From an uncultured bacterium (lineage in GTDB: Bacteria > Bacillota > Clostridia > Lachnospirales > Lachnospiraceae), in the NCBI GenBank assembly GCA_947177425.1, contig CAMWUN010000033.1, positions 1 through 37,548 on the forward strand: a stretch of DNA of 37,548 nt. The letters run 5' to 3'. Under the pieces are notes generated by a model, which worked only from the letters and a program-made list of their open reading frames with translations, searched no databases and was not told the DNA's origin. This document shows, one piece after another, positions 7,084 through 30,879 of the stretch. The first letter of the stretch is position 1; every line of letters begins with the position of its first letter. The translations under genes were made by a program, and so were the position numbers.

Positions 7084-7114
7084 AAAGGCTTCCGCTTTTA
7101 TTGCGGAAGCCTTT
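7084..7114. terminator. Hairpin terminator between convergent genes
   Basis: A perfect 12-bp stem, AAAGGCTTCCGC (7084-7095) with GCGGAAGCCTTT (7103-7114), separated by seven bases. It lies between the end of the plus-strand PsiE-like gene and the end of the minus-strand buk gene, so it may serve both. Confidence 0.8.
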
Positions 7115-7118
7115 ATTA

Positions 7119-7191
7119 CAATAAGCTGGCTCGCGAAGTGTGGCAGCGTTTGTTTAACATAAGGACAGTTTGCAAAACGTGCTGCCCGTTG
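7119..7191 (+). repeat. Two small hairpin repeats, reversed order
   Basis: The unit with stem GCTG (7125-7128)/CAGC (7144-7147) comes first and the unit with stem GGACAG (7163-7168)/CTGCCC (7182-7187) second, the reverse of the order at 55-124. The loops keep TCGCGAAG and TTGCAAAACG-like cores. The array lies just beyond the terminator and past the 3' end of buk. Confidence 0.6.
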
Positions 7192-9222: not shown

Positions 9223-9374
9223 TTGTCTCCTCATTTCTGCACGGCTGCTTCATACATAAATTCAATAAGCCGGCCCCCAAAGCATGACGGCATTTGATGC
9301 TTCCTGAGCCTGCGGACGCCGTGCTGACGCAGACTCTTAAAAGGCGGCCATTCACGATTAAATACATCGTTAAA

Positions 9375-14894: not shown

Positions 14895-15168
14895 TAACAG
14901 AAACCGTTGAAGAAGAGTAAGTACTTTGGGTTATCTTTATCACAGAGAGCCGCGGCTGGTGGGAAGCGGCATAAAGAGCTTAGGGGAATGGACTTCCGAG
15001 GGCGAGTCGAAAGTTTTTAGTAGACGAGACGGAGAGGAGACTTCGTTAACAAATCAAGCATATGATAGTATGCGATGAGCGGATGCGTTAACTATGCATC
15101 AAGCCGGGTGGCACCGCAGGAGATGATACTCTTGTCCCAGCATTAGATTGGGATGGGAGTTTTTTTTA
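14895..15168 (+). promoter_or_regulatory. T-box riboswitch, Trp (TGG) specifier
   Basis: A T-box leader. It has the AAGAGTA S-turn motif near 14910, AGAGAGCC and the distal hairpin (14944-14970), and GGAA followed by specifier TGG at 14989-14991 and a closing ACTTC. The T-box core GGGTGGCACCGC is at 15106-15117 and the terminator at 15128-15167. The tryptophan codon fits the downstream tryptophan synthase beta gene, so the gene should be read when tRNA-Trp is uncharged. Confidence 0.95.
15128..15167 (+). terminator. T-box intrinsic terminator (trpB2 leader)
   Basis: ACTCTTGTCCCA (15128-15139) pairs over 12 bp, with some G-T pairs, with TGGGATGGGAGT (15149-15160), followed by a run of T residues to 15167. 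Confidence 0.9.
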
Positions 15169-15242
15169 TATTCAAAACATGTCTTAAAACTCCCCCAATC
15201 AGGAACAATAAAATGTTTAGAAATGCAGAAATGGAGGAGAAC

Positions 15243-16631
15243 ATGAGCAAAGAAACGAAAATCCCTTACAAAATTTATCTGGAAGAACACGAGATGCCGG
15301 ACAGTTGGTATAATGTGCGTGCAGACATGAAGAATAAGCCTGCGCCCCTGCTGAATCCAGGCACACTGCAGCCTTTGACCCTTGAGGAAATGAGCGGCAT
15401 TTTCTGTGAGGAACTGTGCAGACAGGAACTTGACGATACAACTGCTTATTTTGAAATCCCGGAGGATATCAGGAAATTTTATAAGATGTACCGTCCTTCA
15501 CCGCTGGTACGCGCCTATTGTCTGGAAGAGAAACTGCAGACTCCTGCAAAAATTTATTACAAATTTGAGGGAAATAACACCAGCGGCAGCCATAAATTAA
15601 ATTCCGCCATAGCGCAGGCTTATTATGCGAAGAAGCAGGGCCTTAAAGGCGTGACCACGGAAACCGGTGCAGGACAGTGGGGAACAGCCCTTTCCATGGC
15701 ATGTGCTTACCTTGGCCTTGACTGCCAGGTGTATATGGTGAAATGTTCCTATGAACAGAAGCCTTTCCGCAGGGAGGTCATGAGGACTTACGGGGCAAAT
15801 GTGACGCCCTCACCTTCCAATACCACTAATGTGGGACGGAAGATTTTAGAGGAGTTCCCGGGCACAACCGGAAGCCTTGGATGCGCCATTTCAGAAGCGG
15901 TGGAAGCGGCTACCAGCCAGGAAGGATATCGCTATGTATTAGGGTCCGTGCTGACACAGGTGCTTCTCCACCAGTCCGTGATTGGCCTTGAAACCAAGAC
16001 GGCCATGGATAAGTACGGCATCAAGCCCGACATTATTATCGGATGTGCCGGAGGCGGTTCCAACTTAGGCGGACTGATTTCACCCTTTATGGGAGAAAAA
16101 TTAAGAGGAGAGGCGGATTACAGGTTTATTGCAGTTGAGCCTGCTTCCTGCCCCAGTTTTACCAGAGGAAAATATGTGTATGACTTCTGCGATACTGGAA
16201 AAGTATGCCCTCTGGCCAAAATGTATACCTTAGGCAGTGGATTCATTCCGGCGGCTAACCATGCGGGAGGACTGCGCTATCACGGCATGAGCTCCGTATT
16301 GTCACAGTTATATGCGGACGGCTATCTGGATGCAGTGAGCGTGGAACAGACCTCTGTATTTAAGGCAGCAGAAGAATTTGCAAGAGTGGAAGGCATCCTG
16401 CCGGCACCGGAAAGTTCACATGCAATCAAGGTGGCAATGGATGAAGCTTTAAAATGCAAAGAGACAGGGGAAGAAAAGACTATCCTATTTGGCCTTACAG
16501 GAACAGGCTACTTTGACATGGTAGCTTACGAGCGGTACAACAATGGGGAAATGACCGACTATATCCCCTCCGACGAGGATTTGGCGAAAGGATTTGCAGG
16601 AGTTCCCAGATTTCCCGGAAATGAAATTTAA
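15243..16631 (+). CDS. trpB: TrpB-like pyridoxal-phosphate enzyme (TrpB2)
   Basis: Pyridoxal-phosphate enzyme that joins indole and serine to tryptophan. At 462 residues it is longer than ordinary TrpB (about 400) and fits the TrpB2 class, which also has an N-terminal extension. The catalytic lysine is Lys118 in the family string SGSHKLNSA; ETGAGQWG follows and the phosphate-binding loop GCAGGGSNLGG lies at about 235-245. Start: ATG at 15243 with GGAGG. No trpA or other trp gene is nearby; it is a single-gene unit behind a Trp T-box and before a strong terminator. This suggests indole salvage or a backup synthase. A role on other substrates is possible for TrpB2. Confidence 0.95.
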   Translation: MSKETKIPYKIYLEEHEMPDSWYNVRADMKNKPAPLLNPGTLQPLTLEEMSGIFCEELCRQELDDTTAYFEIPEDIRKFYKMYRPSPLVRAYCLEEKLQTPAKIYYKFEGNNTSGSHKLNSAIAQAYYAKKQGLKGVTTETGAGQWGTALSMACAYLGLDCQVYMVKCSYEQKPFRREVMRTYGANVTPSPSNTTNVGRKILEEFPGTTGSLGCAISEAVEAATSQEGYRYVLGSVLTQVLLHQSVIGLETKTAMDKYGIKPDIIIGCAGGGSNLGGLISPFMGEKLRGEADYRFIAVEPASCPSFTRGKYVYDFCDTGKVCPLAKMYTLGSGFIPAANHAGGLRYHGMSSVLSQLYADGYLDAVSVEQTSVFKAAEEFARVEGILPAPESSHAIKVAMDEALKCKETGEEKTILFGLTGTGYFDMVAYERYNNGEMTDYIPSDEDLAKGFAGVPRFPGNEI

Positions 16632-16729
16632 AAGTCAATAATCCCGCTACAGGCAAGCGGGGAATTAGGCCCCCGCGCAGTCGTCAAGGCCAGGCAAGCC
16701 TGATTTTGACCCGTTGCCTGCGGGAATAA
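16632..16729 (+). repeat. Structured intergenic repeat, copy A
   Basis: A folded element directly after the trpB2 stop codon. An outer stem pairs TCCCG (16642-16646) and CAGGCAA (16650-16656) with TTGCCTG (16714-16720) and CGGGA (16721-16725). It encloses hairpin 1, GCGGGG (16657-16662) with CCCCGC (16671-16676), and hairpin 2 (16683-16710) with GTCAA...TTGAC ends. The result is a three-way junction. It aligns end to end with 30066-30164 and partly with the reverse strand of 29535-29605. Confidence 0.8.
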
Positions 16730-16760
16730 ACAGAAACACTTTATAAAAAGCGTATGAAAG

Positions 16761-16805
16761 AAACTGCCGTCTGCGGAAATATATTTGCAGACGGCAGTTT
16801 TTTTA
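16761..16805 (+). terminator. Intrinsic terminator after trpB2
   Basis: A 14-bp perfect stem, AAACTGCCGTCTGC (16761-16774) with GCAGACGGCAGTTT (16787-16800), is followed by more T residues. Confidence 0.95.
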
Positions 16806-20735: not shown

Positions 20736-20818
20736 TGCAGGCCCGTGCAGTGGAAGTTTACCGCTAAAGCGGCGCACGGGCCGCGCGGCGAGCAGGGAGA
20801 AGATCCTTCCTACTCGAT
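20736..20818 (+). mobile_element. Group II intron 3'-end-like relic
   Basis: GGCCCGTGC (20740-20748) pairs with GCACGGGCC (20774-20782), resembling a domain V helix with a small internal hairpin CCGC/GCGG (20761-20772). A weak domain VI-like hairpin, AGGGAG (20794-20799) with CTTCCT (20806-20811), is followed by TACTCGAT. The ending matches the intron tail at 1-53. No reverse transcriptase is nearby, so it is a remnant, or else an ordinary hairpin that happens to look alike. Confidence 0.4.
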
Positions 20819-20825
20819 TACAGGA

Positions 20826-25304: not shown

Positions 25305-25332
25305 AAAGGCTTCGTATTTTGCGAAGCCTTTT
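25305..25332. terminator. Terminator after tex
   Basis: AAAGGCTTCG (25305-25314) pairs with CGAAGCCTTT, ending in TTTT. It lies between tex (+) and the XRE gene (-) and is similar to the terminator at 7084-7114. The bases just after it read CAATAAGCTG, the entry sequence of the small hairpin repeats. Confidence 0.85.
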
Positions 25333-25353
25333 GCTGCAATAAGCTGCCTTGCG

Positions 25354-26041: not shown

Positions 26042-26061
26042 ATCTTACGTAAATAAAGAAA

Positions 26062-26201
26062 AGTTCTTCGGGGGTGGGTGCAATTCCCTACTGGCGGTAC
26101 AGTCCGCGACCCATGAATCCTGCTTAAGTCCATATGGCAGGGTGAAGTGGCTGATTTGGTGAAAGTCCAAAACCAACAGTAAAGTCTGGATGAAAGAAGA
26201 A
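26062..26201 (+). promoter_or_regulatory. FMN riboswitch (RFN element)
   Basis: All RFN landmarks are in order: TTCTTCGGGGG at the 5' side, GGGTGCAATTCCC, CTGGCGGTA, AGTCCGCGACCC, TGGTGAAAGTCCAAAACC, CAACAGTAAAGTC and the closing GATGAAAGAAGA. An intrinsic terminator follows at 26258-26288. Binding of FMN would favour termination and shut off ribU and remA. Confidence 0.97.
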
Positions 26202-26257
26202 AAAGGCCGTTTCCTGCTTTTGGCAGGCAAATGGTTATATGTGCAGTTATGAAGAAG

Positions 26258-27599: not shown

Positions 27600-27634
27600 C
27601 AATAAGCTGGGTTCGCAAAAGATGACAACGTTTG
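27600..27634 (+). repeat. Decayed small hairpin repeat
   Basis: CAATAAGCTGGGTTCGCAAA matches the start and loop of the units at 93-124 and 7119-7152, ending in a diverged GACAACGTTT. The closing CAGC is lost. It lies 70 bases before the VWA gene. Confidence 0.5.
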
Positions 27635-27702
27635 ATAGCTGTGCCCGGTAAGTTTTCCGGTTTTGCAATTAGCCGATTATGAAAGCGTGGGAGGATTTGG
27701 TT

Positions 27703-29418: not shown

Positions 29419-29534
29419 GATTTATTCTGCAAACAGCCTTTGGTATTATCCGGACGCAAGGCAGAGCAGGGCCGAATTAATCTGCTGTTTACATATCATA
29501 TAAATACACAGGAAAAAGGTGCAGAGCCACTGAG

Positions 29535-29605
29535 TTATTCCCAAAAGCATCAAGCCAGAGTCAGACATGCCTGACTTTGATGACTGCCACAGGGGTGTTG
29601 ACTTA
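29535..29605 (-). repeat. Structured intergenic repeat, deleted copy C
   Basis: Read on the minus strand it starts AAGTCAACA and ends GGGAATAAC, as copies A and B do, and keeps hairpin 2 with changed but pairing bases (ATCAA/TTGAT and AGTCAG/CTGACT). Hairpin 1 and the 5' arm of the outer stem are missing. It lies in the 770-bp gap after the VWA gene. Confidence 0.7.
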
Positions 29606-29994: not shown

Positions 29995-30007
29995 AGGGAT
30001 TTGGGTA

Positions 30008-30035
30008 TTGACAAAATTTGTACTAGTTATATAAT
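30008..30035 (+). promoter_or_regulatory. Promoter of the efflux ABC operon
   Basis: Perfect TTGACA (30008-30013) and TATAAT (30030-30035) with a 16-bp spacer. The start near 30042 gives a leader of about 145 nt that contains structured repeat B. Confidence 0.85.
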
Positions 30036-30065
30036 ACAATAGTACAGGAGATGCTGCTTTAGGGG

Positions 30066-30164
30066 AAGTCAATAACCCTGCTGCAGGCAAGCGGGGCATT
30101 ATACCCTCGCGGCAGTCGTCAAGGTCAGGCGGGCTTGACTTTGGCTCGTTGCCCGTGGGAATAA
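30066..30164 (+). repeat. Structured intergenic repeat, copy B
   Basis: It aligns end to end with copy A (16632-16729). Hairpin 1 is GCG-GGG with CCC-CGC plus one bulged base (30091-30110). Hairpin 2 (30118-30145) forms a 13-bp helix of GTCAAGGTCAGGC with GCTTGACTTTGGC, differing from copy A at several positions while still pairing. The outer stem CAGGCAA/TTGCCCG has one mismatch. It lies inside the 5' leader of the ABC operon, ending 22 bases before the first start codon. Confidence 0.8.
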
Positions 30165-30186
30165 AATAAGGAGTGCTTAGGTTAAA

Positions 30187-30879
30187 ATGAGTGAACTAAT
30201 TGAGATTCGGGATATGTGTAAGATATATAATCCTGGTGAAAATGAGGTCCGCGCATTGGATCATGTGGATTTAAAGATTGATAAGAATGAATTTGTAGCC
30301 ATTATCGGCCAGTCCGGTTCGGGTAAGTCCACACTGATGAATATGCTGGGATGTCTGGATGTGCCCACCAGCGGTACATACATATTAAATGGACAGGATG
30401 TTTCCAATCTGACAGATGATGACCTTTCAGATATCAGGAACCGTGAAATTGGATTTATTTTTCAGGGATTTAATCTGATTGCGGGACTGACGGCACTGGA
30501 AAATGTGGAACTTCCCCTGATTTACCGGGGAGTGGGCAGGAAGGAGCGGCTGCAGCTTTCAGAGATAGCCCTGGAAAAGGTAGGATTAAAGAAGAGGATG
30601 GACCATAAGCCCTCAGAGATGAGCGGCGGCCAGCAGCAGAGAGTAGCCATAGCAAGGGCCATAGCCCAGGCGCCGCCTGTAATCCTGGCTGATGAGCCTA
30701 CCGGAAATCTGGATTCCAATTCCACAAAGGAAATTATGGAGATTTTAAAGGGGCTTCATGCTGAAGGCAGGACGGTTATACTGATAACACATGATAACGA
30801 TATTGCCGCCAGGGCAAGGCGGATTATCCGGATTATGGACGGCAGGATCGTGGATGATATTATGAATGAGCAGGTGTGA
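30187..30879 (+). CDS. ABC transporter ATP-binding protein (MacB/LolD type)
   Basis: Cytoplasmic ATPase of a MacB-like exporter, 230 residues. Walker [10 protein letters not shown] is at 41-49, Q-loop FIFQGFNL near 90-97, signature SGGQQ at 146-150, Walker [13 protein letters not shown] at 165-176 and the H-loop VILITHD near 196-202. The length and the LMNMLGCLD string fit the LolD/MacB/YknY subfamily. A possible AAGGAG lies upstream of the ATG. It is the first gene of a three-gene operon with the adaptor and the permease, which together should pump peptides or other toxic compounds out. Confidence 0.96.

Follow-up and report, generated by a model that had tools for sequence, protein, structure and literature searches.

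The stretch of DNA analysed here (the window, 37,548 nt) comes from an uncultured bacterium of the Lachnospiraceae. It contains a gene for a TrpB-like PLP enzyme, trpB2 (15153..16631, + strand; NF009057 674.5 bits, cut-off 366; TIGR01415 585.9 bits, cut-off 518.85), which is preceded by a T-box leader (14898-15142; Rfam 98.2 bits). Two nucleotides past the trpB2 stop codon begins copy A of a short hairpin element (16634..16725, +), with hairpin 1 at about 16634-16670 and hairpin 2 at about 16672-16724. The strand on which copy A reads GTCAAT..GCGGGA, the + strand of the window, is called the reader's strand below. Copy A scores 81.3 bits with R1, a model which we built from 11 copies. The ATAAA which follows at 16726..16730 (+; TTTAT on the other strand) is probably a retained insertion target, to judge from the comparable empty site at locus L084 (discussed below). 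A preliminary description had let copy A end the trpB2 transcript, but a terminator-like hairpin with a T-run, recognised by eye, follows the copy at about 16761-16804.

Copy B (30068..30160, +; R1 86.9 bits; hairpin 1 at about 30068-30104, hairpin 2 at about 30106-30159) lies upstream of a gene for an ABC transporter ATP-binding protein (30187..30879, +). The best NCBIfam match of this gene is MacB with 279.7 bits (cut-off 966), and all 25 NCBIfam matches shown score under their cut-offs. Here too an ATAAA follows (30161..30165, +), which we likewise read as a retained target; a relative (L189) has ACAAAATAAGGAG at the same place without the element. The ribosome-binding region AATAAGGAG overlaps this ATAAA and continues past it. 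Upstream of the copy we noticed by eye a promoter-like TTGACA-16-TATAAT (30008..30035, +), which is largely kept in the relatives' orthologous leaders without copy B. Copy B sits between this sequence and the ribosome-binding region of the transporter gene, in agreement with the earlier claim that it leads the efflux transcript.

Copies A (16634-16730) and B (30068-30165) align from end to end, as had been reported, with 83% identity; searched against the own genome, the match has an E value of 1.8e-22. Copy C (29539..29602, - strand) is, by alignment and by R1 (33.1 bits, E 3.4e-4 over 29534-29602), the reversed copy with one lost hairpin that had been described: it is truncated, most of hairpin 1 is gone and hairpin 2 is retained. 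The window also contains an FMN riboswitch (26060-26205; Rfam 107.1 bits).

The conserved fold consists of two successive hairpins. Hairpin 1 reads GTCAAATACCCCGC..GCGGGGTATTTGAC with the ends GTCAA..TTGAC, and hairpin 2 reads CTCGCGGCAG..TTGC(T)CGCGGG with the inner stem GCCAA..TTGGC, followed by AATAAA. Copy B and four other full copies that were folded (L008, L018, L019, L023) take this form, with folding z values of -9.5 for L019 and -9.8 for L023. The three-way junction which had been assigned to A and B alike is the minimum-energy fold of copy A alone and was rejected as the shared fold. At about 90-130 nt the element is too short for a transposase gene.

The observation that the hairpins change and yet still pair is borne out. 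In the two-hairpin layout 12 of the 38 pairs are changed on both sides among 11 hand-chosen copies, and 31 of 38 among 61 copies (the matches from 61 chosen loci, in an alignment fitted to R1 and hence leaning towards it); the changes are largely compensatory. The 61 copies show 213 cells with changes on both sides as compared with 71 in shuffles, none of 500 shuffles reaches the observed values on any measure, and slid versions collapse. The search with many copies that had been proposed as a check thus finds helix-supporting changes. Among the 122 pattern matches listed, some (L309, L310, L331) have a hairpin 1 of altered sequence that still pairs, and others (L253, L302, L323, L341) have lost hairpin 1, or have another sequence in its place, and retain hairpin 2. 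Hairpin 2 is the best conserved part of the element.

The element is widespread. In the own genome R1 gives 37 matches at E ≤ 0.001; at E ≤ 1 the number rises to 53, which includes some opposite-strand echoes of the palindromes. Counting the own genome, 26 of the 37 genomes of the genus have matches, and the genome G049 has 60. An exact pattern was found in at least 120 stretches of GTDB contigs; among the 80 listed, most carry titles at the level of the family Lachnospiraceae or of a genus (Blautia, Dorea, Hungatella, Eisenbergiella, Muricomes, Acetatifactor, Lacrimispora), and a few stand under broader or other labels. We take all these genera to belong to the Lachnospiraceae, which we confirmed for Muricomes only. 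No copies were found in plasmids, and the phage search gave a single partial match in an unannotated record. A description of the repeat family was not found in the open-licence literature (subscription papers were outside the search).

At orthologous places the copies of the window are mostly missing. None of the 16 orthologous leaders examined, which are those taken as loci from 32 other genomes matching there, carries copy B. Similarly, 12 of the 13 trpB2 ends taken as loci from 28 other genomes with a match have no copy within the first 190 nt past the gene. The thirteenth (G019, L196) has a different copy further downstream, which we read as an independent insertion. Over the 29 orthologous loci R1 matches only this copy and one far from trpB2 (L192).

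Evidence for recent movement comes from G049, which has 22 near-identical young copies in 20 fetched stretches. Their flanks are unrelated, save that L087 and L092 share the right flank; by eye, the young copies at L085, L086 and L091 adjoin older ones. That the element is not tied to one pathway, as proposed from copies A and B, agrees with these mostly unrelated places. The site at L084 is empty in the relatives G045 and G051, which read GAACTGTTAA-ATAAAG and GAACTGTTAA-ATAGAG where G049 has GAACTGATAA-element-ATAAAG. Compared with the two flanks of L084 joined up without the tail, the empty site is longer by four bases. Because of this empty site we assign the four tail bases (ATAA) to the target, without duplication, and the element is then GTC..CGCGGGA or, one A shifted, AGTC..CGCGGG. 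The boundary rests on this single empty site, at which G051 has ATAGA and not ATAAA. The base preceding GTC is A in 21 of the 22 copies.

The reading frames across the sites are a weaker test of the boundary. At L089 a long LysR-like frame is restored by a four-base tail (one or seven bases are equally good). Frames of at least 45 codons on each side span 7 of the 22 sites; two, both at L089, fit the boundary and five do not, and the gene-like frames at L090 and L100 are one base off, in either direction. The boundary is therefore approximate at the level of the single base; judging from the empty site, the AATAAA tail is probably at least partly insertion target. Copies are present inside gene-like frames; the genes are presumably of the LysR type at L089, for a restriction enzyme at L100 and for a membrane transporter at L101. 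Direct repeats of four bases across the insertion occur at 3 of the 22 sites (2.1 expected) and of five to six bases at one (0.1 expected). When 109 joined flank pairs were searched against the fetched loci, only L084 and copy B emerged as empty sites; the remainder were self matches, of which L271 and L086 adjoin older copies and L313 is spurious.

The element also shows a strand preference. Among the 122 pattern matches listed, several per genome, 80 have flanks with negative GC skew on the reader's strand and 42 have flanks with positive skew (P 0.0007); at 46 of the 122 the genes run mostly with the reader's strand (P 0.008). The G-rich strand is the element's TTTATT strand in 80 of these 122, a larger share than the 497 of 963 (497 vs 466) for unoccupied TTTATT sites (P 0.002). 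This moderate bias leans towards the lagging-strand template. The same lean is not significant within G049 (13/22) or the own genome (17/30), nor, taken alone, on the complete chromosome G428, where 16 of 23 copies agree in a hand count from which an opposite-strand echo and a copy close to the terminus were excluded. A preference for the lagging-strand template is named for IS608 and ISDra2 in the consulted part of PMC6006769.

A candidate parent is found on contig 66 of G049, a broken Y1 transposase gene with 81.7 bits to PF01797 (Y1_Tnp) and 89.8 bits to NF033573 (transpos_IS200, cut-off 55). The right end of this tnpA element is identical to the young copy L088 at 64 of 64 positions and the left end at 32 of 35. 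The stretch shared with L088 is present at both ends of the tnpA element, and a deletion of the core mediated by this repeat would therefore fuse the ends and lose the gene. Open kin of this TnpA occur in G023 (L165, 154 aa) and G319 (L367). A comparison of L165 and L367 places the left end after TTGAAT and the right end at GTTGATT; by analogy, the left ends of L164 and L368 are put after TTTAAT. The L165 TnpA matches eight solved sequences, all of them transposases and one from ISHp608. Close kin are rare, with matches at E ≤ 1e-30 in 3 of the 37 genus genomes (4 places) and at E ≤ 1e-15 in 2 of 392 genomes sampled from the order. A phmmer search with two TnpA queries over the loci L217-L366 (≤ 8 kb each) returned only the G049 element (L222). 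The own genome's only Y1_Tnp gene (L015) was considered as a partner and rejected, as R1 has no match there.

We suggest that the copies are a non-autonomous palindrome-associated transposable element (PATE), which would have arisen from an IS200/IS605-family element by loss of the transposase gene and would be moved in trans as single-stranded DNA. We give this reading, which is drawn from sequence comparison, a probability of about 0.8, and the repeat is most likely a new family of PATEs. On the strand opposite to the reader's strand the arrangement is TTTAT(T)/CCCGCG-hairpin 2-hairpin 1..GGTATTTGAC(T)/, slashes marking the ends, so written that TTTAT(T) would be the target and TTTGAC(T) the right-end sequence. 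A TnpA supplied in trans would bind both hairpins in single-stranded DNA and make two cuts, one after the target and the other after the right-end sequence. The ends of the element would then be joined into a single-stranded circle, which could be inserted 3' of another TTTAT(T), preferably on the lagging-strand template. Copies once landed would decay. In the case of copy B the insertion would add a folded leader to the mRNA of the ABC transporter, fortuitously and not by design.

PATEs are described from Haloquadratum walsbyi (PMC3119063, as far as the part consulted goes), and the consulted part of PMC7290912 reports one PATE-like sequence in Halanaerobium hydrogeniformans. The present element resembles them in four defining features. 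It has near-terminal palindromes, here the two hairpins, and no terminal inverted repeats, the ends of the TTTATT strand, CCCGCGAGC.. and ..GTATTTGACT, not being complementary. It makes no target duplication, judged by the empty L084 site in two relatives, and its length precludes a transposase. A terminal oligonucleotide equal to the target, a further PATE feature, agrees with L084 (ATAAA in G045, ATAGA in G051) and with the L089 frame, whereas L090 and L100 deviate by one base. Kinship with an IS605-type palindrome holds in copy L088 for hairpin 1 (64 of 64) and for the left half of hairpin 1 (32 of 35), and was not found for hairpin 2. A likely origin through repeat-mediated core deletion of an IS605-type element would also be shared, to judge from the parts of PMC3119063 and PMC7290912 consulted. 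Unlike the PATEs described, the element is hosted by Lachnospiraceae, has an additional long bulged left-end hairpin unseen on the tnpA-bearing relatives read, and consists almost wholly of two adjacent hairpins. With IS200/IS605 elements such as IS608 and ISDra2 it has in common the related Y1 TnpA proteins in G049 (broken), G023 and G319, the right end of the G049 tnpA element, the insertion 3' of a short fixed sequence and the lean towards the lagging-strand template. In contrast to them it encodes nothing; a Y1 TnpA gene is present, in broken form, in the G049 relative with the same right end. A classical MITE, named in the preliminary description as the case that would speak against its view, is not what is present, since neither terminal inverted repeats nor target duplications are found.

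The weak point of this reading is hairpin 2, since it is missing from all four tnpA-bearing elements with a readable left end (L164, L165, L367, L368). Tentatively, hairpin 2 may be an acquired left end which retargeted the element from TTTAAT/TTGAAT to TTTAT(T) and allowed it to outlive the parent across the Lachnospiraceae; the element would now be moved by other resident Y1 enzymes or by an unknown enzyme. A rather unlikely alternative is a different mover for the same mobile hairpin element: a recombinase or another HUH protein would recognise hairpin 2, and hairpin 1 would match the Y1 element only through recombination or common descent. Beside the missing hairpin 2, this would suit the copies in genomes without a Y1_Tnp match (the presence of Y1_Tnp shows by eye no relation to copy number, and G001 has 22 copies and no Y1_Tnp) and the four matches named above in which hairpin 1 is gone or replaced and hairpin 2 retained. 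Against it, the right end identical at 64 of 64 positions and a duplication-free insertion beside a short fixed sequence are Y1 behaviour, as set out in the portion of PMC7290912 consulted.

Much less probable is that the copies are structured RNAs, or cis-regulatory leaders, of one family which spread and was kept for its function. The strong covariation and the position of copy B in a leader are in line with it, and several other copies lie, by eye, just before ribosome-binding-like sequences. Moreover, in the 61 copies G-T wobbles on the reader's strand number 186 over all pairs as compared with 106 A-C (wobbles on the other strand). The excess is, however, confined to two pairs of hairpin 2 with G-T as the commonest state; excluding them the numbers are 94 and 106. 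Selection on an RNA from the reader's strand should favour the G-T kind at every pair, and the equal kinds at the other 36 pairs fit a neutral decay of DNA hairpins once inserted. The two pairs fixed as G-T could reflect pairing on the reader's strand. Also against an RNA family are the copies inside gene-like frames and the 16 of 16 orthologous leaders without copy B. Rfam at gathering score has no match over copies A, B and C, and in the window gives only the FMN and T-box entries; at E ≤ 1 nothing is found for 30000-30200. A long G049 copy has only sub-threshold Rfam matches, seven in number; most are to animal microRNA families, and microRNA families account for five of them. Selection for structure and mobility had been proposed with two outcomes, a noncoding mobile element or a structured RNA family. 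Such selection, mobility and the first outcome are supported by the young copies at mostly unrelated places, the empty site and the absence of a tie to one pathway; the Rfam results and the leaders speak against the second. On balance a mobile element is better supported than an RNA gene family, and strong covariation and a leader position do not alone prove a functional RNA.

Least probable of all are REP/REPIN-type repeats moved by a RAYT, which are likewise short imperfect palindromes tied to enzymes of the Y1 superfamily (PMC3733652 and PMC6006769, in the parts consulted), since at the foot of its hairpins the consensus lacks both the GTAG and the CGTC tag, and the TnpAs, above the transpos_IS200 cut-off, score only 19.5 and 27.3 bits with REP_Tyr_transpos (NF047646, cut-off 80).

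The non-autonomous PATE would account for a widespread repeat of gut Lachnospiraceae that can be mistaken for an RNA family or a riboswitch. It provides this repeat with approximate boundaries, a candidate enzyme and a likely target. G049, with its burst of copies, could become a natural model of single-strand transposition in Clostridia.

Some further repeats were noted. In L302, L323, L341, L361 and L364 another GC-rich inverted repeat precedes hairpin 2 in place of hairpin 1, and ..GTGCCACCGGCACAC.. is common to L341, L361 and L364 before hairpin 2. These five matches suggest that different right ends can combine with hairpin 2. Over 30 Y1 loci R1 has four matches, with E values of 0.15-0.91; all are in G049, where L129 has three and L120 one. 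These two loci contain minimal derivatives of about 65 nt (L129 784-850; L120 339-400), in which the start of hairpin 2 is kept and an AACCAGC/GCTGGTT hairpin and TAGGTATTTGACT follow. Such derivatives occur at 29 places in G049 with at most three mismatches, and at one in the own genome, with three mismatches (C75:14000).

Beside the L102 insertion of G049 lies a stretch of about 55 nt (L139 1501-1556) with matches in 33 of the 37 genus genomes besides G049, at 81-100% identity where matched. It has no Rfam match at gathering score and is possibly an undescribed conserved RNA or a short gene. Finally, a second dispersed repeat of the type AATAAGC.GG.TCGC.AAGC.TG.CAGCGTTT, separate from the hairpin element, occurs in the window at 55-124, 7101-7191, 9260-9295, 20790-20820, 25319-25353 and 27610-27698, and by eye also beside copies of the element in L011, L195 and L204.
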